Origin: Methylobacteriaceae bacterium
GTDB lineage: Bacteria > Pseudomonadota > Alphaproteobacteria > Rhizobiales > Beijerinckiaceae
Direction of reading: 5' to 3'
DNA length: 19,979 nt
NCBI GenBank assembly: GCA_031272615.1
Contig: JAISTL010000059.1
Span: forward strand, 1-19,979
Below are positions 7,419 to 18,033 of this stretch, piece after piece. Each line of letters starts with the position of its first letter. Positions within the stretch are counted from its first letter, which is position 1. Both the position numbers and the translations under genes were made by a program. Below the pieces are notes generated by a model that worked only from the letters and a program-made list of their open reading frames with translations, was not told where the DNA came from and did no database searches.

Positions 7419-8846
7419 TTATTCGACGACAATCTTGTAGGACTGCCCGGCAACGGGCGCCTGGCCCTGTTCCAGTCCGTTGAGAACGGAGAAGTAGGCA
7501 GGCCCGGGTGGCGAAGCCATCCGCCGGGCCAGCGAGGCGGTTGATTCTCCGGTCCCGGCGGTGACAATGCGGAGTTTGAGCGGCTGGACGCGCTCGCCTT
7601 CCTCCGCCGTCGGGGTGTGGACGGAATTGAGCATTTGCCGGAACACCGCGTCCAGGGCGGAACCCTGCTTGCGTGCCGCGACAATCAGCCGGAACACGTT
7701 GCCGCTCTGGCGGATGGCCGCGAGCCGGAACACCCATTCCGGGCTTTGCGCCCGCGCGGTAAGAACCGCCAGCCCGTTGACGGTCTCCGATTGAAAATCC
7801 TCGGGTTTGATGGCGTCGTTCCAGATGTTGTCGAGAATGCTCTGCAGGTCGGCGCTGCCGCGCACCACATCCAGCATCAGCCGCATCCCGGTGCCGTCAC
7901 TGGTGCCGAGAACCGCCCTCGCCGTGTTCTCCAGGCGGAAGCCCGGCGGCGCCTCGAAGGCGAAGCGCAGCGTCGTGTGGATGAAGCGCCGCCCGACGAC
8001 CAGGCCTTCATCGGGCGAATCGCCGTATTCCATGCCGTCCAGCGTCGCGAGATACTCATTGCGGTCCTGCCGGCCGAGCCCCGGCGCGCCGATCACCCGC
8101 GCGGCGGCGAGAGTCAGCTTGATGCGTTCCTTGAGCGACGGGTGGGTGGAGAGCATGTCCGTTCCGCTCTGCCGGCCGCCGCTTGTCCGATCCAGGGATT
8201 TCAGGAAGCGGGGCGCGCCGAAGGGGTCATAACCCGCCTTGGCCAGGGTGGCGATGCCGGTTTTATCCGCCTCGAACTCCTGCTCCCGCGAGAACCGGGC
8301 AATGGAAAAGCGGGATTGGTCGGCATAAAGCGAGGAACCGCTCTTGTCCTGCAGCACGTCTGAAACCACGCGGCTCACCAGTGCGGAGCGCGCCTCCAGT
8401 TCGGTGCGGGCCGCGGCATGGCGAAGCGTCACATGGGCAATCTCGTGGGCGATCACCGCCGCGACTTCGCTGGAATCATTGGCCAGCGCCAGCAACCCGC
8501 GGGTGACGTAGAGCTGATGACTGGGAAGGGCAAAGGCGTTGATTTGCGGGGACTTGAGTATTGTCACCCGGTAGCCTTCCCCGGGACGGTCCGTCGCCGG
8601 GATAATGCGCCCGACGATGCGTTCCAGCATGGCCCGGACCGCGGGGCTGCGGTATTCGCCGCCGAAGGCGCGCAGCATCTGGGCGTGTTCCTGAACGGAG
8701 ACATTGGAACCGTCGGGGATGTCGGGGGCGTCCAGCGTGTTGGGCACGGTGGAACAGGACGCCAGCAGCAGCACGCTCATCAGCGCGCCGCCGATACGAC
8801 GCAGCGCGCGTATTGTGCCTTTGCCGGTCTGCTGCCGCCTGCCCAC
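7419..8846 (-). CDS. M48-family zinc metalloprotease lipoprotein (BepA/LoiP-like) with C-terminal LysM-like segment
   Basis: Periplasmic, outer-membrane-anchored metalloprotease of the M48 family, which typically handles outer-membrane protein quality control. The zinc site is HEIAH (H134, E135, H138, numbered from the GTG start), with the third ligand in REQEFEADKTG (E190). The N-terminus carries a lipoprotein signal ending LLLASC (lipidated Cys31). The last 50 residues (LRIVTAGTGESTASLARRM...VLNGL...GQSYKIVV) look like a degenerate LysM domain, common in alphaproteobacterial members. The GTG at 8846 is chosen: AGGTG precedes it, it leaves a normal signal peptide, and the longer frame from the ATG at 8924 runs through a promoter-like sequence and lacks a ribosome site. 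A GTG at 8855 is also possible. About 475 residues. Substrates unknown. Confidence 0.88.
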   Translation of the reverse strand: MGRRQQTGKGTIRALRRIGGALMSVLLLASCSTVPNTLDAPDIPDGSNVSVQEHAQMLRAFGGEYRSPAVRAMLERIVGRIIPATDRPGEGYRVTILKSPQINAFALPSHQLYVTRGLLALANDSSEVAAVIAHEIAHVTLRHAAARTELEARSALVSRVVSDVLQDKSGSSLYADQSRFSIARFSREQEFEADKTGIATLAKAGYDPFGAPRFLKSLDRTSGGRQSGTDMLSTHPSLKERIKLTLAAARVIGAPGLGRQDRNEYLATLDGMEYGDSPDEGLVVGRRFIHTTLRFAFEAPPGFRLENTARAVLGTSDGTGMRLMLDVVRGSADLQSILDNIWNDAIKPEDFQSETVNGLAVLTARAQSPEWVFRLAAIRQSGNVFRLIVAARKQGSALDAVFRQMLNSVHTPTAEEGERVQPLKLRIVTAGTGESTASLARRMASPPGPAYFSVLNGLEQGQAPVAGQSYKIVVE

Positions 8847-11023: not shown

Positions 11024-11065
11024 CGGGCAAACACGGCAGCCCGGTCCGCCGGGGGCATTTGCCCG
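11024..11065 (-). ncRNA. Short Y-RNA-like RNA B3 (degenerate YrlB-type)
   Basis: Third and shortest B-type element, about 42 nt. CGGGCAAA (5') pairs with UUUGCCCG (3') over 8 bases, and the arm runs into the shared motif AAAUGCC seen in B1. An inner hairpin can form from CCCGG and CCGGG around CGGA. It begins exactly 15 nt after A3, the same spacing as in the other two pairs. It lacks the CCUUG that precedes the 3' arm in A1, A2 and B1, so it is probably degenerate. Ends are estimated from the closing stem. Confidence 0.5.
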
Positions 11066-11080
11066 GGCATGGGGATGAAC

Positions 11081-11182
11081 GGGCGGCGACAAAAGGTGAT
11101 GAAACGTATCGGGTCATCGTGCAATGACCCGTTCAAGAGTCGAACTTGTGATGCCATGTAGTTCCATCGGCATTCGCCGCCC
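11081..11182 (-). ncRNA. Y-RNA-like RNA A3 with a reduced tRNA-like module
   Basis: Third A-type RNA, about 102 nt. The closing stem GGGCGGCGA/UCGCCGCCC is 9 bp. After the internal-loop motif AUGCC a second helix, GAUGGAAC/GUUUCAUC, is 8 bp and differs from A1 and A2 by compensatory changes. Inside, the shared ACUACAU is followed by a T-arm-like hairpin, CAAG-UUCGACU-CUUG, and then a perfect 8-bp hairpin CGGGUCAU/AUGACCCG in place of the acceptor-like stem. The D arm present in A1 and A2 is absent. This is the least tRNA-like of the three. Just upstream is a 10-base duplication of GCGGCGAATG. Confidence 0.72.
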
Positions 11183-11196
11183 ATTCGCCGCATTAC

Positions 11197-11298
11197 CCGG
11201 ACAGAAAGGAAATATCAATACTTGACACCCGGGCACCAAGGGAAAATGACGAGACGATCCGTTCAGGCTCATGTCGTCCCGCACCGGAATTTGTCCGG
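11197..11298 (-). ncRNA. Y-RNA-like RNA B2 (YrlB-type, enlarged)
   Basis: Second B-type RNA. CCGGACA (11298-11292) pairs with UGUCCGG (11203-11197). The inner stem GCGGGACGA/UCGUCUCGU is 9 bp with two G-U pairs. It is about 30 nt longer than B1 because of an insertion after the inner stem. A nearer, imperfect 3' arm UGCCCGG (11235-11229) could close a shorter form. It begins 15 nt after A2 and ends 14 nt before A3. Confidence 0.62.
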
Positions 11299-11313
11299 AG
11301 CGGGTATCGGAGG

Positions 11314-11453
11314 CGCGGCGACAAGGTTTCGTGAAACAAACACTTTCCTGCTCTACCGGTTGAGCTACGAACCCATTGTCATGAGTCCGGCGGGACTTGA
11401 ACCCGCAACCTGGGCATTATGATTGCGATGTAGTTCCACAGGCATTCGCCGCG
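11314..11453 (-). ncRNA. YrlA-type Y RNA A2 with permuted tRNA-like module
   Basis: About 140 nt. The closing stem CGCGGCGA/UCGCCGCG is 8 bp, then an internal loop (AUGCC on the 5' side, a 3' side ending ACCUUG), then the helix GUGGAAC/GUUUCAC. The tRNA-like module is in permuted order: T arm GCGGG-UUCAAGU-CCCGC, then a 9-bp acceptor-like hairpin CGGACUCAU/AUGGGUUCG capped by GACA, then UA, then D arm GCUC-AACCGGUA-GAGC. So the acceptor ends are joined by a loop and the outer helix replaces the anticodon stem. This is the arrangement known for YrlA partners of Ro60. On the plus strand it looks like two tRNA halves in the wrong order. Confidence 0.85.
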
Positions 11454-11469
11454 CATCATTTTATAAAAC

Positions 11470-11539
11470 CCGGACAACAAGGATAGTCGCGAGACGGTGC
11501 ATCAACTGAAAATGTAGTCCCGCAACGGCATTTGTCCGG
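11470..11539 (-). ncRNA. Y-RNA-like RNA B1 (YrlB-type)
   Basis: About 70 nt. The lower stem CCGGACAA/UUGUCCGG is a perfect 8 bp. After AUGCC the upper stem GUUGCGGGAC/GUCUCGCGAC pairs over 10 bases (two G-U). The loop starts with UACAU, the same sequence that opens the tRNA-like module in the A RNAs. The 3' arm is preceded by CCUUG as in A1 and A2. It has no tRNA mimic. It starts 15 nt after A1 and ends 16 nt before A2; an AU-rich stretch follows. Confidence 0.75.
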
Positions 11540-11554
11540 ATATCGTATCGGAAC

Positions 11555-11691
11555 CGCGGCGACAAGGTTGGGTTGAAACACATTACACCTGCTCTACCGG
11601 CTGAGCTACGGGGCCGGATTCCGGACCCGGCGGGACTCGAACCCGCGACCTGGCGATTATCGACAATGTAGTTCCAACGGCATTCGCCGCG
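11555..11691 (-). ncRNA. YrlA-type Y RNA A1 with permuted tRNA-like module
   Basis: About 137 nt, first RNA after rsr. The closing stem CGCGGCGA/UCGCCGCG is 8 bp; then the AUGCC internal loop opposite a 9-nt side ending ACCUUG; then an 8-bp helix GUUGGAAC/GUUUCAAC. The module holds, in order, T arm GCGGG-UUCGAGU-CCCGC, an acceptor-like hairpin CGGGUCCGG/CCGGCCCCG with one mismatch capped by AAU, UA (like U8-A9), and D arm GCUC-AGCCGGUA-GAGC with the conserved GG. A short helix ACAUU/AAUGU replaces the anticodon stem and joins the Y stem. Bacterial Y RNAs next to Ro60 are known to carry such tRNA mimics, tether Ro60 to RNases and receive tRNA modifications. The ends are estimated from the closing stem. 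Confidence 0.88.
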
Positions 11692-11770: not shown

Positions 11771-13335
11771 TCATTCGGCGTCCAGGCGGACTTTGTTGAT
11801 CTCGCTCACCCAGTGGGCGGCGCTCAATTCGCCCCGGGCAAACGTGCCGATAATGTCGAACACCGCGTCGGAGAAGCCGCCGACGTTGAGGATGTCCAAC
11901 CGTTCATGGGCCTGCGTCGTGGTATACGGCGCAATATCCAGGCACACCAGACGCGCCTGGCGATTGAGTTTTTTCACCCTCTCCCAGGCCTGCATCGTCG
12001 CGGTCCCGCGATGCCCCGGTGTGGCATCGAACCAGGACTGGTTGTCCGAGATCAGCACGACGAGGTCCACCGGGTGGCGGCTCACGGCGATCCGATCGAT
12101 CGCGACGGAGCACGCGGTTCCGCCGCCGCACAGCGCCGCCAGCTTTCCGGAATTGGTCATCACCGTGTCGCGGGCGTTCAGGTTCACGTCACGCACCTCG
12201 GTATCGAACGGCAACACCATCGCGCGGCTGTTCTGCCGCAGGATGGCGGCCGCCATCAGCGCCGCAACGTCCACACAGCGCGTCACCGATGTCTGGCCCC
12301 TGCGGAACCCCGTCACCGGGTATGACATGGAGCCCGAAACGTCGACACACACCACAACGTTTCCGTCGATCACCGGCACATTGGTGATGGCGATTTCATG
12401 GCGTCCTGCAGGGCGTCGCGGATCATTGCCGGAACTTCCGCGCCGATACTGTTGAACGCCGTCATCAGTTGATACGGAAACACTTTGGCGTGTTTGATCG
12501 CTTCGGCGTTTCTCAGCTTGTCGGCAATCATCCGGGTGAAGCCATCGTCCTTGAACGCGCCGTGGCGGCCGAAGGTGTTGAGGTTCATGCGGATCATGTG
12601 CCAACCGGCCTTTTCACCGATGGACATCCAGTGGTCGCGCGTCAACGGCAGAGACGTCAACAGTTGGAACGGAACATCCGGGACGTCACGACCGGCCGGA
12701 TCGGCCTTGAACGCGATGTAATCGCGGACAATGCCCGGCAGCGCCAGAATGTCATACGGCTTTCCGATCAGCCAGCCGAACAGCGCCTCGCGGGCCTTGC
12801 TCGCCGGTTTCGGGTGCACCATTTTGATGATGTCGGCCAAAGACGGGTCCTGCCCCACCGACGCGCGCAGAATCGCGGCGTCGGTCGCGGTTTCCAGCCA
12901 GTTCAGAATCATCTTTTTCGGGCGGATGCCGAAAGACTTGCGTCCCGTGGCGCCGGAGCGGACGATCTGGGCGAAGGTGCGCAGCATTTTGCCGTTGTCC
13001 ACCACACGGTGAAAAACCTTGGTGAAATGCTCGCTGCGGACAGAGGAAAGCCATGCCAGCAACAGGGCCGGCATATCCTTCATGTAGCCGCGTTCACGGG
13101 CATACACCGCCGTTTTGGCGACGAATTCCGGAGAAACGCCGTTGACCACCGCCAGAACCTCATCGAGTTGCGCTTCGGCGGTCGCGTAAAACGTGCGGGA
13201 CATGGTCCCCGTTGCCGCCAGCTGCGCGAGTTTCTGCTCGGCGGAGAGCTCATACGCGGTTCCACCGGCCTCGTTGACGATATCCGTCCACAGGATTTTG
13301 CCTGCCGCGGACCCGAAGATTGACTTGTTGGCCAT
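11771..13335 (-). pseudogene. rsr: Ro60 ortholog Rsr (TROVE plus vWA), interrupted by a one-base frameshift
   Basis: Ring-shaped RNA-binding protein that binds Y RNAs and the ends of misfolded RNA. The start at 13335 (MANKSIFGSAAGKI) follows AAGGAG 8 bases upstream. The first frame encodes the TROVE HEAT-like ring and stops at 12370 with the false tail KSPSPMCR. The vWA half continues in the neighbouring frame to 11771, with the MIDAS motif DVSGSM. Joined, DAM-EIAITNVPVIDG reads like normal Ro60, and the total would be about 521 residues, close to the family's 530. The junction ATG-AAATCGCC at 12397/12396 lacks one G compared with the expected ATGGAAATCGCC. It could be a sequencing or assembly error, or real loss. 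It is transcribed from the sigma-54 promoter at 13394-13409 and followed by the Y RNAs, its expected partners. Identity is certain; the functional state is not. Confidence 0.9.
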
Positions 13336-13393
13336 GGCCGTTCTCCTTTCTAAGATTTTTGATCTGCTTCGTTTGACTGACGTAAAACTTATG

Positions 13394-13409
13394 AGCAATC
13401 ACCATGCCA
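13394..13409 (-). promoter_or_regulatory. Sigma-54 (-24/-12) promoter of rsr and the Y-RNA array
   Basis: The minus strand reads TGGCATGGTGATTGCT, a full match to the sigma-54 consensus TGGCAY-N5-TTGCW. It is 59 bases before the rsr start and points toward it. The divergent neighbour encodes RtcR, a sigma-54 activator, which fits exactly. Transcription should begin about 12 bases after the GC, near 13384. Confidence 0.88.
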
Positions 13410-13549: not shown

Positions 13550-15145
13550 ATGCGCCCTGTCGTGGTCATCGGCTTTCTCGGAACAACCCTCGACGCCGGT
13601 CGTTATGAAAAACGCTGGAATCGGTGGCGTCCGACGGTGGCCCTGTGCCGGCAGCCCGGTTTGCCGGTGGACAGACTGGAGCTTCTGCTCGATGAACAAT
13701 ACGCGCCCATGGCGGAAACCGTTGTCAACGACATCAGGGTGGTTTCCCCTTACACCCTGGTTGTTCCCCGCTTCGTGAAACTGGCGGATCCGTGGGATTT
13801 CGAGGAAATGTACGCCGCCCTTCACGATTTCGTGCGCGACTACCCGTTCGATCCGGAGAAGGAGGAGTATCTGGTCAACATCACCACCGGCACCCATGTG
13901 GCGCAGATTTGCTGGTTTTTGTTGACGGAAGCCCATGACATTCCCGGGAAAATCCTGCAACTCTCGCCGCCTGCCGCCGGTTCGGGGGATACCGCCGGCA
14001 GCCACGCGGTCATCGACCTCGATTTGTCGCGTTATGACCGCATCGCCAACCGGTTCCAGGCGGAACAGAGGGAAGCCGCATCGTTTCTGAAGTCGGGCAT
14101 CGATACGAGAAACGACATGTTCAACCGCCTGATCGACCATATCGAACGGGTGGCGGTTCGCTCGTCGGCGCCGATTCTGCTCACCGGACCGACGGGAGCG
14201 GGAAAATCCCAGCTGGCGCGGCGTATCTACGATCTCAAGAAGCTGCGCTACCAGGTGAGCGGGCCGTTTGTCGAAGTGAATTGCGCCACGCTGCGCGGCG
14301 ATACCGCCATGTCCACCCTGTTCGGGCATGTCAGGGGCGCCTTTACCGGGGCGCAGGCGGATCGTCCCGGCCTGTTGAAAACGGCGGAAAAGGGCGTGCT
14401 GTTTCTGGATGAAATCGGTGAGCTGGGCCCGGATGAGCAGGCGATGATTCTGCGCGCGGTGGAGGACAAGTGCTTTTTGCCGCTGGGCTCCGACCGGGAG
14501 GTGAAAAGCGATTTCCATCTCATCGCCGGCACCAACCGTGATTTGGGCGAGGCGGTGCGAAAGGGGACGTTCCGGGAGGATTTGTTCGCGCGCCTCAATT
14601 TGTGGTTTTTCAACCTGCCGGGGCTCCGGCACCGGCGGGAGGACATCGCTCCGAACATCGACTACGAGTGTCAGCGCTTTGCCGAACGGGAAGGGCAAAG
14701 GGTTTCGTTCAACCGGGAGGCGAAGGAGCGCTATCTGGCGTTTGCGCTTTCGGAAGAGGCGGTATGGAGCGCCAATTTCCGGGATTTGAGCGCGTCGATC
14801 ACCAGAATGGCGATCCTCGCGACGAATGCCCGCATCAACCTGGAAAACGTCGAGGAAGAGATATCGCGCCTCAGGGATCTGTGGCGGGCAAAACCATCGC
14901 TGACGTCGGATGAGGCCGTGCTGGATCAGGTGTTGGGTACAGAGCGCGCGGCGCAGCTGGACCTGTTCGACAAGACGCAACTGGCCGCGGTGGTGCGAAT
15001 CTGCCGGGACGCTTCGTCTTTGAGCGCCGCCGGGCGCATTCTCTTCGCCGTTTCCCGCACGCGCAAGACCTCGGGCAACGATGCCGACCGTCTCAAGAAA
15101 TACCTTGCCCGCTTCGACCTCGACTGGAAAGACGTGCACGGGTGA
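13550..15145 (+). CDS. rtcR: Sigma-54-dependent transcriptional activator RtcR
   Basis: Bacterial enhancer-binding protein that activates RNA-repair operons with sigma-54 RNA polymerase. The 531-residue length is typical. The N-terminal sensor (about 1-180) is the RtcR domain, a CARF-like fold: it opens RPVVVIGFLGTTLDAG and contains VNITTGTHVAQICWFLLTEA. It is thought to sense damaged RNA ends or tRNA fragments. The AAA+ domain has Walker A GPTGAGKS (213-220), the sigma-54 contact loop GAFTGA (263-268) and Walker B LFLDE (D287, E288). The C-terminus (about 470-531) should hold the DNA-binding helices. AGGA lies about 8 bases before the ATG. It is divergent from rsr, and the shared 214-bp region holds both promoters and a candidate binding site. 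In enterobacteria it sits beside rsr, yrl RNAs and rtcBA; here rtcBA is not in the window. Confidence 0.96.
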   Translation: MRPVVVIGFLGTTLDAGRYEKRWNRWRPTVALCRQPGLPVDRLELLLDEQYAPMAETVVNDIRVVSPYTLVVPRFVKLADPWDFEEMYAALHDFVRDYPFDPEKEEYLVNITTGTHVAQICWFLLTEAHDIPGKILQLSPPAAGSGDTAGSHAVIDLDLSRYDRIANRFQAEQREAASFLKSGIDTRNDMFNRLIDHIERVAVRSSAPILLTGPTGAGKSQLARRIYDLKKLRYQVSGPFVEVNCATLRGDTAMSTLFGHVRGAFTGAQADRPGLLKTAEKGVLFLDEIGELGPDEQAMILRAVEDKCFLPLGSDREVKSDFHLIAGTNRDLGEAVRKGTFREDLFARLNLWFFNLPGLRHRREDIAPNIDYECQRFAEREGQRVSFNREAKERYLAFALSEEAVWSANFRDLSASITRMAILATNARINLENVEEEISRLRDLWRAKPSLTSDEAVLDQVLGTERAAQLDLFDKTQLAAVVRICRDASSLSAAGRILFAVSRTRKTSGNDADRLKKYLARFDLDWKDVHG

Positions 15146-16761: not shown

Positions 16762-18033
16762 ATGGAAACCATTGAGAGAAACAGCCTGAGAAGTCAAAGG
16801 CAGGCAAGAGCCGCGACTCTCATAAAACCCAAAGAAGGTCTCGGTTTTTGGGCGGTGCCGATGGCGATTCTGGTGCTGCTGGCCTACATCGTCGCCATGT
16901 ATGTCGGTTTCCGTCTGCCGAACTTATGGAGCGCCAACTATTATCTGCCCAGTTTCCAGGAGGGTTTCTACCGGCGCGGTCTGGTCGGCGCGCTGATGTA
17001 TTATCTCGGCGACATGCGGTTTGACTACTATGTCACCATGTACATCAGTTTCGCTCTTTTTGGACTTGTCGCCATCCTGGTTTTCTTCAAGGTTCTGAAG
17101 AACGGGCATATTGCCTGGATTTTCACGCTGTTCCTGCTGTCGCCCTATGGCGGCTACGCGTTCCACACCATCGGCTATATCGATTATCTGCTGATGTTGC
17201 TGCTGTTTCTGGCCGTCGCCATCAATAACCGGATTGTCGGCATCATTCTGCTCACCGTGTCTCTGTTCATTCATGAACAGACCGTCTTCACGACCATTCC
17301 CGCCTATTTCGCCTATCGCCTGTATCGGGGTGACCGCCTGTTCAGCCTGGTGCCCTACGCATTCATAATGCTGGCGATTATCGGGGCCTTTTCAATCTAC
17401 TGTCAGGAAATCCCCGGGGAAACCATCGGCGCGTTCATGGACAAGGTGAGGCAGAAGATCAATTATCCCTTCCGGGATGATTTCTATTGGCATTTCCCGG
17501 AAACATTTTCAGTGAAAACGGCCCGCCTCGATCGGTATTACAACCTGGTCGACGCCCACAACATCGCCTACCTGATTCCCTTGGCGGCGGTGGTCGGTTA
17601 TCTGTTTTCGTCCAGGGGCGATACGCCGGCCGAACAGGTGTTCATGGCGGCCGTCGGTATTTTCGCCTGCGCCGCGCCGCTGCTGATGGGAGCGCTGGCA
17701 TGGGATTGTTCCCGTTGGGAGTTCCTGTCGGCATGTTTCGCCATGATGATGATCTATTATGCCCGCGACATTGTGAGCTGGAGGGAATCGCTGGTCTGTA
17801 CCCTGGCGATGCTGAGCATCATTCCGTTGACGGAGTTGTTCTATTTTGACGATTATCGGCCGCGTCAGGTAATCTATCGCGAAATTCCGAAGCCGGAAAC
17901 GCCGTGGGAATACAAATACGCGATCAATAAGCAGGAAATTGAGGATTTCTTCACCAGAGAACTGTTTGTGGAAGCATCCAAGAAGCCGTGTGCCCAGCGT
18001 ATCGATCAAAAAACCGATTGTCTCGGCCGCTGA
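16762..18033 (+). CDS. Polytopic membrane protein of unknown function, about ten TM segments
   Basis: A protein of 423 residues with roughly ten hydrophobic helices: about 29-50, 92-111, 117-135, 139-153, 157-172, 196-213, 269-283, 292-311, 319-334 and 343-358. Between the first two is a conserved-looking extracytoplasmic or interfacial motif, FQEGFYRRGLVG (65-76). Other polar spots within the membrane region are HEQ (171-173) and WDCSRWE (314-320). These features recall EpsG-like or GT-C-type envelope polysaccharide proteins, but I cannot assign a family. The N-terminal 28 residues are basic and cytoplasmic; the C-terminal 65 residues are soluble. GGAG lies 5 bases before the ATG. It stands alone between the glpQ terminator and lepA, 85 bp before the latter. 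Confidence 0.85.
   Translation: METIERNSLRSQRQARAATLIKPKEGLGFWAVPMAILVLLAYIVAMYVGFRLPNLWSANYYLPSFQEGFYRRGLVGALMYYLGDMRFDYYVTMYISFALFGLVAILVFFKVLKNGHIAWIFTLFLLSPYGGYAFHTIGYIDYLLMLLLFLAVAINNRIVGIILLTVSLFIHEQTVFTTIPAYFAYRLYRGDRLFSLVPYAFIMLAIIGAFSIYCQEIPGETIGAFMDKVRQKINYPFRDDFYWHFPETFSVKTARLDRYYNLVDAHNIAYLIPLAAVVGYLFSSRGDTPAEQVFMAAVGIFACAAPLLMGALAWDCSRWEFLSACFAMMMIYYARDIVSWRESLVCTLAMLSIIPLTELFYFDDYRPRQVIYREIPKPETPWEYKYAINKQEIEDFFTRELFVEASKKPCAQRIDQKTDCLGR

Follow-up and report, generated by a model that had tools for sequence, protein, structure and literature searches.

A Y RNA array downstream of Ro60 in a Methylobacteriaceae bacterium, with heads that resemble circularly permuted tRNAs

The window analysed here, 19,979 nucleotides of a Methylobacteriaceae bacterium and the entire contig of a draft genome with a completeness estimate of 78%, carries several Y RNAs downstream of the gene for Ro60 (rsr). 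They share a core of the kind that docks on Ro60, as indicated by matches to the YrlA family and to our core model R3 and by the Ro60 domains found, and this part of a first-pass annotation is supported. In two units, A1 and A2, the head is, as read from the sequence, a nearly whole tRNA that is circularly permuted and opened in the anticodon stem. The annotation had described three A/B pairs in the order A1-B1-A2-B2-A3-B3. Six elements are indeed visible in this order between positions 11024 and 11691, all on the minus strand like Ro60 (Table 1), but not all six are sound Y RNAs, and what was described as three pairs amounts to two pairs followed by an A unit of a different type and a remnant.

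Table 1. Units of the array, their tRNA-like parts and features of the Ro60 operon, in window positions.
Feature	Position	Strand	Evidence
A1: YrlA-type Y RNA with circularly permuted tRNA-like head	11555..11691	-	RF02553 65.1 bits; R3 47.5 bits; fold
A1 T-arm-like stem-loop, 5 bp and 7-nt loop	11630..11646	-	sequence, fold
A1 acceptor-like helix: 7-nt strands, 7-nt linker, 6/7 paired	11609..11629	-	
A1 D-arm-like stem-loop	11591..11606	-	sequence, fold
B1: simple Y RNA, core and hairpin without tRNA-like head	11468..11541	-	R3 41.5 bits, E 3.6e-9; z -3.89
A2: YrlA-type Y RNA with circularly permuted tRNA-like head and anticodon-like arm	11313..11454	-	RF02553 64.3 bits; R3 48.6 bits
A2 T-arm-like stem-loop	11390..11406	-	sequence, fold
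A2 acceptor-like helix: 7-nt strands, 7/7 paired, 8-nt linker	11368..11389	-	
A2 D-arm-like stem-loop	11350..11365	-	sequence, fold
B2: degenerate copy of B1	11225..11301	-	54/73 identical to B1; z -0.33; no R3 match at E<=2
A3: different type of Y RNA; Y core, acceptor-like and possible T-arm-like hairpin	11080..11183	-	R3 51.5, R1 57.7 bits; z -4.83
A3 possible T-arm-like stem-loop, 4 bp and 7-nt loop	11134..11148	-	sequence; energy model favours an overlapping 6-bp hairpin
A3 acceptor-like hairpin	11110..11131	-	sequence, fold
B3: short element, possibly what remains of a simple Y RNA	11024..11065	-	R2 14.3 bits, E 0.076; R3 12.2 bits, E 0.22
Ro60 (rsr), open frame with TROVE part	12370..13398	-	PF05731 E 1e-8; 62% identity to the L003 protein
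Ro60, second open frame in another frame, von Willebrand A part	11771..12604	-	PF25045 (vWA_Ro60) E 7e-16; homology starts near 12391
Sigma-54 (-24/-12) promoter-like site preceding Ro60	13394..13409	-	exact consensus match
rtcR, CARF-type sensor and sigma-54 activator, divergent from Ro60	13550..15145	+	PF06956 E 7e-79; PF00158 E 4e-49

The core of the units consists of a closing stem, an AUGCC internal loop, a second helix that contains GGAACUACA or GGGACUACA, and a 3' side that carries CUUG. A1, A2, A3 and B1 have the closing stem, the AUGC internal loop and the second helix, but B2 and B3 do not. The claim that every A has these elements was borne out by Rfam and R3, and for the B units it holds for B1; motif and stem are broken in B2, and the core was not recognised in B3. 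When Rfam was searched in E-value mode, A1, A2 and A3 matched YrlA (RF02553) with 65.1, 64.3 and 38.3 bits (E 2e-14, 3e-14 and 1e-6), all under the curated cut-off of 69 bits. B1, B2 and B3 gave no YrlA match at E<=1, and gathering mode returned no match anywhere in the window. In the RF02553 alignments of A1 and A2, 14-16 nt are inserted between the second helix and the T arm. The window's matches to tmRNA, tRNA, group II intron and plastid families were regarded as weak cross-matches; tmRNA matches in relatives coincide with YrlA matches.

A Y-core model (R3) was made from 13 simple Y RNAs of relatives, with zero rows from the window; from the first simple-unit alignment, the doubtful seeds L059 and L068 had been removed ahead of modelling. 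R3 detected A3 (51.5 bits), A2 (48.6), A1 (47.5) and B1 (41.5), with E values from 8e-12 to 4e-9, and missed B2 at E<=2. The seed of model R1 holds A1 and A2 and that of R2 holds B1, so that high scores of these units with their own model are built in; A3, which is in neither seed, reached 57.7 bits with R1, and R2 gave B2 11.3 bits (E 0.43). On the minus strand of the window, the top four hits of a descriptor were B1, A2, A3 and A1, scoring 53-60 compared to at most 45 in five simulated 20-kb sequences, although this test is partly circular, as the descriptor was written after the units had been read. Folding energies support the same four units, with z-scores of -2.3 (A1), -3.3 (A2), -4.83 (A3) and -3.89 (B1), but not B2, which folds at shuffle level (-0.33), or B3 (-1.3).

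B2 clearly looks like a degenerate copy of B1 that arose by tandem A-B duplication: B1 and B2 are identical at 54/73 aligned positions (best of 200 shuffles, 37), and A1B1 and A2B2 at 165/226, spacer included. Equal A-to-B spacers of 15 nt had been reported for all three pairs. Pairs 1 and 2 do have this spacing, and since they are tandem copies it reflects duplication and not phasing; in pair 3 it depends on the stem ends chosen. A3 is a different type of A unit, without D arm and without anticodon arm, and A3B3 shares 96/163 positions with A1B1 and 91/163 with A2B2. Whether B3 is a Y RNA remnant is doubtful.

The T, acceptor and D arms follow each other in permuted order in A1 and A2, and are absent in this form from A3 and B1. 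Read across the cut, the order of T stem, 7-nt strand, linker, 7-nt strand, U8-A9 and D stem is that of tRNA geometry, and in 88 distinct units the 7-nt strands form 5 or more of the 7 acceptor pairs. The tests of the head were made on 97 units, at least one of which occurs in 68 of the 80 related loci described below (best 80 of 518); the set takes in short YrlA types without an anticodon loop. CCA was found exactly one base past the 7-nt strand, the place of discriminator and CCA in tRNA, in 33 of 77 distinct linkers of at least 4 nt, and at all other offsets together in 6. After clustering at 85%, N-CCA remained in 17 of 51 linkers compared to about 1.2 expected from linker composition. The linkers of A1 and A2 are without CCA.

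A 5-nt variable region and an anticodon arm precede the T arm. At a fixed offset, the anticodon loop has U33 in 60/97 units and a purine at 37 in 76/97. The 5' strand of the anticodon stem had to be drawn from both sides of the cut, 2 nt of it lying on the D-arm side, which did best among six cuts; all five pairs then form in 58/97 units, compared to a mean of 21 and a maximum of 30 with shuffled partners (slid 0-2). Among 58 representatives, the full stem forms in 31 (shuffled mean 9.4, maximum 17). A2 has 5/5 pairs and U33 at the commonest cut, and A1 has 4/5, or 5/5 if cut two bases further, with C at 33. Under an alternative criterion (next cut, 4/5 pairs, U33, purine 37), 48/97 units from 44 sources were complete, A2 included.

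When the units were re-ordered, ARAGORN called a tRNA in 92/97 (A1 Ile(gat)-like, A2 Met(cat)-like), compared to 0/97 in native order and a mean of 49/97 for mismatched joins; the join point had been picked after inspecting one unit (L078). Since about half of the mismatched joins are called, ARAGORN is lenient here, and a tRNA call alone is weaker than the stem test. No tRNA gene in native order was found within the window. The best of 73 reference tRNAs varies by unit, Arg(tct) being the commonest (33/97). In 25 first units, which occupy the same array position, positions 31-38 have an entropy of 0.72-1.52 bits, while 42, 49-53 and 60 are invariant, part of the T-stem invariance being due to selection, as a mostly paired T stem was required; the invariance at 47, 54-56 and 58 was built in by selection and was not used. 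A variable anticodon loop with a constant T stem fits a tRNA fold that is maintained rather than used for decoding. In A1 and A2 the permuted cloverleaf lies at most 0.8 kcal/mol above the minimum, and the unconstrained minimum is another fold.

Compensatory changes, whose absence from relatives would by the annotation have refuted the idea, do occur there, in 19 of 28 predicted pairs of the tRNA-like class and 14 of 15 of the simple class, when a pair is counted on at least one both-sided change that keeps pairing. This covariation is partly built in for closing stem, second helix, T stem and D stem, which the selection of units required. The acceptor-like stem is free of such selection; here both sides had changed in 2-11 of 21 sequences per pair, and 2 or 3 were broken.

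The idea that such an array is unusual is not supported. A genome scan with three full-length Ro60 proteins provided 80 loci (the best 80 of 518 confirmed), and R1 was built from 21 seed units, 2 from the window and 19 from these loci. Matches within 3 kb downstream of Ro60 were counted as array members. This applies to 362 of 375 R1 matches, of which the 80 loci account for 354, L010 for 5 and the window for 3. At least two units were found in 79 and at least three in 72 of the best 80 of 518 loci: 7 loci have two, 12 three, 23 four, 19 five, 11 six, 5 seven and 2 eight. The sole locus with none, L052, has merely 237 nt of sequence past Ro60. Neighbouring R1 units in these 80 loci are separated by a median gap of 19 nt, and 214 of 279 gaps measure 8-40 nt. 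Descriptor hits of at least 46 within 2.5 kb downstream of Ro60 number at least one in 75 and at least three in 56 of the best 80 of 518 loci, and elsewhere in the loci there are 6 on the plus and 18 on the minus strand; these counts lie under those of the model because the descriptor is strict. Strict alternation of long and short units was seen in none of the 79 unit-bearing loci and not in L010 (R1 units and the best 150 of 325 R3 units); judged from these comparisons, the strict A-B-A-B order is a local duplication in the window. The Y core is conserved across loci of several phyla, as assigned by record title. In L057 (7607-7842) and L068 (7606-7840), the first unit is about 235 nt long and its head much longer than in the others. 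L020, recorded as Mycobacterium sp. KBS0706, carries as many R1 units as Inquilinus limosus (L019) does, in similar places, and the name may be wrong.

To what extent R1 is specific can be seen from 199 genomes of the order. Some Ro60 match was found in 20 of them and a strong one (E below 1e-100) in 14, and all 14 have R1 matches, with best E values between 1.1e-34 and 1.1e-20. Among the matches listed for the 199 genomes, the best R1 match in a genome without any Ro60 match has 46.8 bits (G160). Some R1 match at E<=0.001 occurs in 127/199 genomes; the weak ones are taken as probable tRNA-gene background, and specificity is argued from strong matches only. In three genomes (G007, G070 and G190), R1 matches lie no more than about 0.4 kb from a weak Ro60 match; in G070 the R1 matches are partial, and tRNA genes may account for them. 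Twelve of the thirteen R1 matches outside arrays straddle two neighbouring tRNA genes called by ARAGORN, and the partial tRNA-like match L087:4413-4465 is accounted for by no tRNA gene call. One match counted as an array member, L084 8064-8134, overlaps a tRNA-Pro gene (8020-8097). In L042, L054, L063 and L087, 8-10 ordinary tRNA genes are clustered upstream of Ro60, and neighbouring pairs of them mimic the permuted module for R1. ARAGORN also placed a tRNA-Asn (L038), a tRNA-Leu (L075) and a tRNA-Pro (L084) in or beside the array, within 2.5 kb past Ro60.

In the window, both the TROVE and the von Willebrand A domain of Ro60 were found by Pfam, but in two frames. A frame slip near 12391 (12391-12397) splits the protein; aligned with three full-length relatives, both parts jointly span it. 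Either the assembly is wrong at this place or the gene was inactivated recently; both parts seem otherwise complete. When 60 genomes were searched with the TROVE part, seven matched: its own, G025 (62%), G014 (58%), G058 (56%) and three with weak matches (E 7e-5 to 4e-4). The Ro60 protein of G025 is that of Rhizobiales bacterium SYSU XM002 (L012), at 100%. Of the features of an RtcR-controlled RNA repair operon, the divergent RtcR and a sigma-54 site are present in the window, the latter an exact match to the -24/-12 consensus. rtcB and rtcA do not adjoin the array, which is followed by typA instead; RtcB of this genome exists as two contig-end pieces away from the array (G000:C34:29-781 and C175:2-421), and a search of the 78%-complete genome gave no RtcA. 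With its split Ro60, no rtcBA beside the array and no RtcA match, the locus may be decaying.

The suggestion that the whole array is made as one long precursor is consistent with the putative promoters: an exact sigma-54 site precedes Ro60, none of the three sigma-70-like sites (1.2 expected) falls within the array, and gaps in relatives are short. A terminator-like site at 11240-11221 within B2 counts against a single precursor; three such sites were found, compared to 3.3 expected.

Related loci show the operon in a more complete state. RtcR was matched in 77 of the best 80 of 518 loci, in 77/77 divergent and upstream of Ro60, and RtcB lies downstream on the Ro60 strand in at least 51 of the 80 (one query, which missed L012 and L031). 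In L012 and L078, RtcB is followed by RtcA. A sigma-54 site with at most 2 mismatches precedes Ro60 in 40/79 loci compared to 0/79 shuffles (one shuffle each), and in 18/79 by a stricter pattern. A gene of the Hen1 type of RNA repair follows RtcB and RtcA in L012 (6596-7990), and an RlaP gene follows RtcB in L042 (9434-10309).

We consider it reasonably probable that the RtcR-controlled Ro60 operon makes several Y RNAs with the same docking core and different heads, which would serve as exchangeable adaptors. The array would then be the RNA-coding 3' part of this operon. RtcR would sense cleaved tRNA, as in Salmonella, and switch on one sigma-54 transcript that spans Ro60 and then several Y RNAs and is presumably cut into separate Y RNAs. 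Each could dock on the Ro60 ring via the common core observed here, as suggested by the conservation of this core and the nearness of the units to Ro60, and the Y stem of A1 and A2 would leave the head where the anticodon stem of a tRNA would go on. The heads differ: that of A1 and A2 resembles a permuted tRNA, A3 would offer an acceptor-like hairpin, perhaps together with a T-arm-like hairpin, B1 has a bare hairpin, and B2 and B3 appear to be decaying. They may decide what the Ro60 ring is tethered to or admits, for which PNPase with the Deinococcus Y RNA is a precedent, and may also keep tRNA-handling proteins bound, so that one Ro60 would obtain a set of exchangeable RNA adaptors. This is supported by the Rfam and R3 matches, the Ro60 and RtcR domains, the sigma-54 site, the operons of relatives and the permuted-tRNA tests. 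It is weakened by the lack of CCA in A1 and A2 and of U33 in A1, the non-cloverleaf minimum and the scores under the Rfam cut-off, and also by the split Ro60, the rtcBA genes that do not adjoin, RtcA not being found and the terminator-like site in B2.

Several known systems come close to this proposal. YrlA (RF02553) has the Y core, the permuted T, acceptor and D arms and the place beside Ro60 in common with A1 and A2; the A units of the window differ by scores under its cut-off, by several copies per array and, in A1 and A2, by the extra 14-16 nt at the place of the tRNA anticodon loop. The Salmonella operon rsr-yrlBA-rtcBA, in which RtcR switches on upon 5' tRNA halves with cyclic phosphate (PMC7790460), likewise has a divergent RtcR, sigma-54 control and Ro60 followed by tRNA-like and other Y RNAs. 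Its name gives two Y RNAs and then rtcBA, whereas the window has up to six units without adjoining rtcBA. In Deinococcus, a Y RNA tethers Ro60 to PNPase (RYPER; PMC8394870, PMC4726728). Docking on Ro60 and linking to a partner are predicted for the window as well; here several kinds of head occur in one operon, and PNPase would be a partner by analogy. The crystallised head of Salmonella YrlA (PDB 6CU1) superposes on tRNA with a circular permutation (PMC11472068), as proposed for A1 and A2. D, T and acceptor arms are named for it (PMC8394870), whereas an anticodon arm is found here too, and N-CCA in relatives.

How the array came about and what it does could be explained otherwise. It is conceivable, if unlikely, that the locus is in decay: Ro60 would have been inactivated and rtcBA lost, and by chance one or two Y RNAs that still work would have stayed on along with redundant duplicates. 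The frame slip, the degenerate B2 and B3, the lack of rtcBA beside the array and of an RtcA match would agree with this; however, RtcR and the sigma-54 site look intact, as do four of six units, the slip is possibly an assembly error of the draft genome, and relatives keep arrays of similar size. A small chance must also be given to the more far-reaching idea that the heads are captured whole tRNAs, permuted at the anticodon stem, which have kept the anticodon arm and, in part of the lineage, the 3' N-CCA. Ro60 operons would have multiplied them into arrays, and their varied anticodon loops would decoy or sense enzymes that cleave tRNA, within the very damage circuit read by RtcR. Rather improbable is the view that the permuted tRNAs are decoys which occupy tRNA-cleaving nucleases during damage, or are cut by them, so that real tRNAs are spared, perhaps delivering cyclic-phosphate ends back to RtcR. 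The anticodon arm is kept at tRNA spacing, its loop positions are more variable than the T stem in the 25 first units, and loops differ within one array; the Salmonella operon is induced by tRNA cleavage, and its authors suggest competitive inhibition as a possibility (PMC7790460). On the other hand, Salmonella YrlA is, according to that paper, not a nuclease substrate, many units (A3, B1, short YrlA types) are without anticodon loop, and A1 is without U33.

That the units are permuted tRNA genes which mature to working tRNAs is hardly credible. Near-complete geometry could be read in this way, as could the N-CCA that some relatives have and the RNA ligase gene that accompanies the operon in relatives, but loops at the same position differ between species and include odd ones, the array-bearing relative G014 has ordinary tRNA genes (48 matches), and the Y core is retained. 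Nor is it at all probable that the units are chance matches or functionless remains of tRNA genes: tandem tRNA genes do yield weak R1 matches, but strong ones accompany Ro60 in the 199 genomes, and loci from several phyla, going by record titles, have retained the Y core.

As far as the literature examined goes, partly in excerpt, bacterial Y RNAs are treated as one or two per Ro60. Chen et al. 2014 are said to state that each species has at least one Y RNA with a tRNA-like domain, and therefore several Y RNAs per species would occur in some. Multiple Y RNAs and mimicry of permuted tRNA are thus already known in kind. In a literature search that did not cover the main Y RNA papers, we found no account of arrays of 2-8 units as the rule in this Ro60 group and none of an anticodon arm or N-CCA position in Y RNAs, both of which may be in print, and no paper that joins permuted tRNA with Y RNA. 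If arrays of 2-8 units with varied heads are the rule in this group, Ro60 would be a platform with exchangeable RNA adaptors, and the purpose of Y RNA heads could be tested head by head within one operon. From the anticodon arm and the position of N-CCA, the tRNA-like head seems to derive from whole tRNAs, and these features would tie Y RNAs closer to tRNA damage and repair. Elsewhere in the window, the open frame 16762-18033 (+; 423 aa), which is without a Pfam match, looks hydrophobic and membrane-protein-like.
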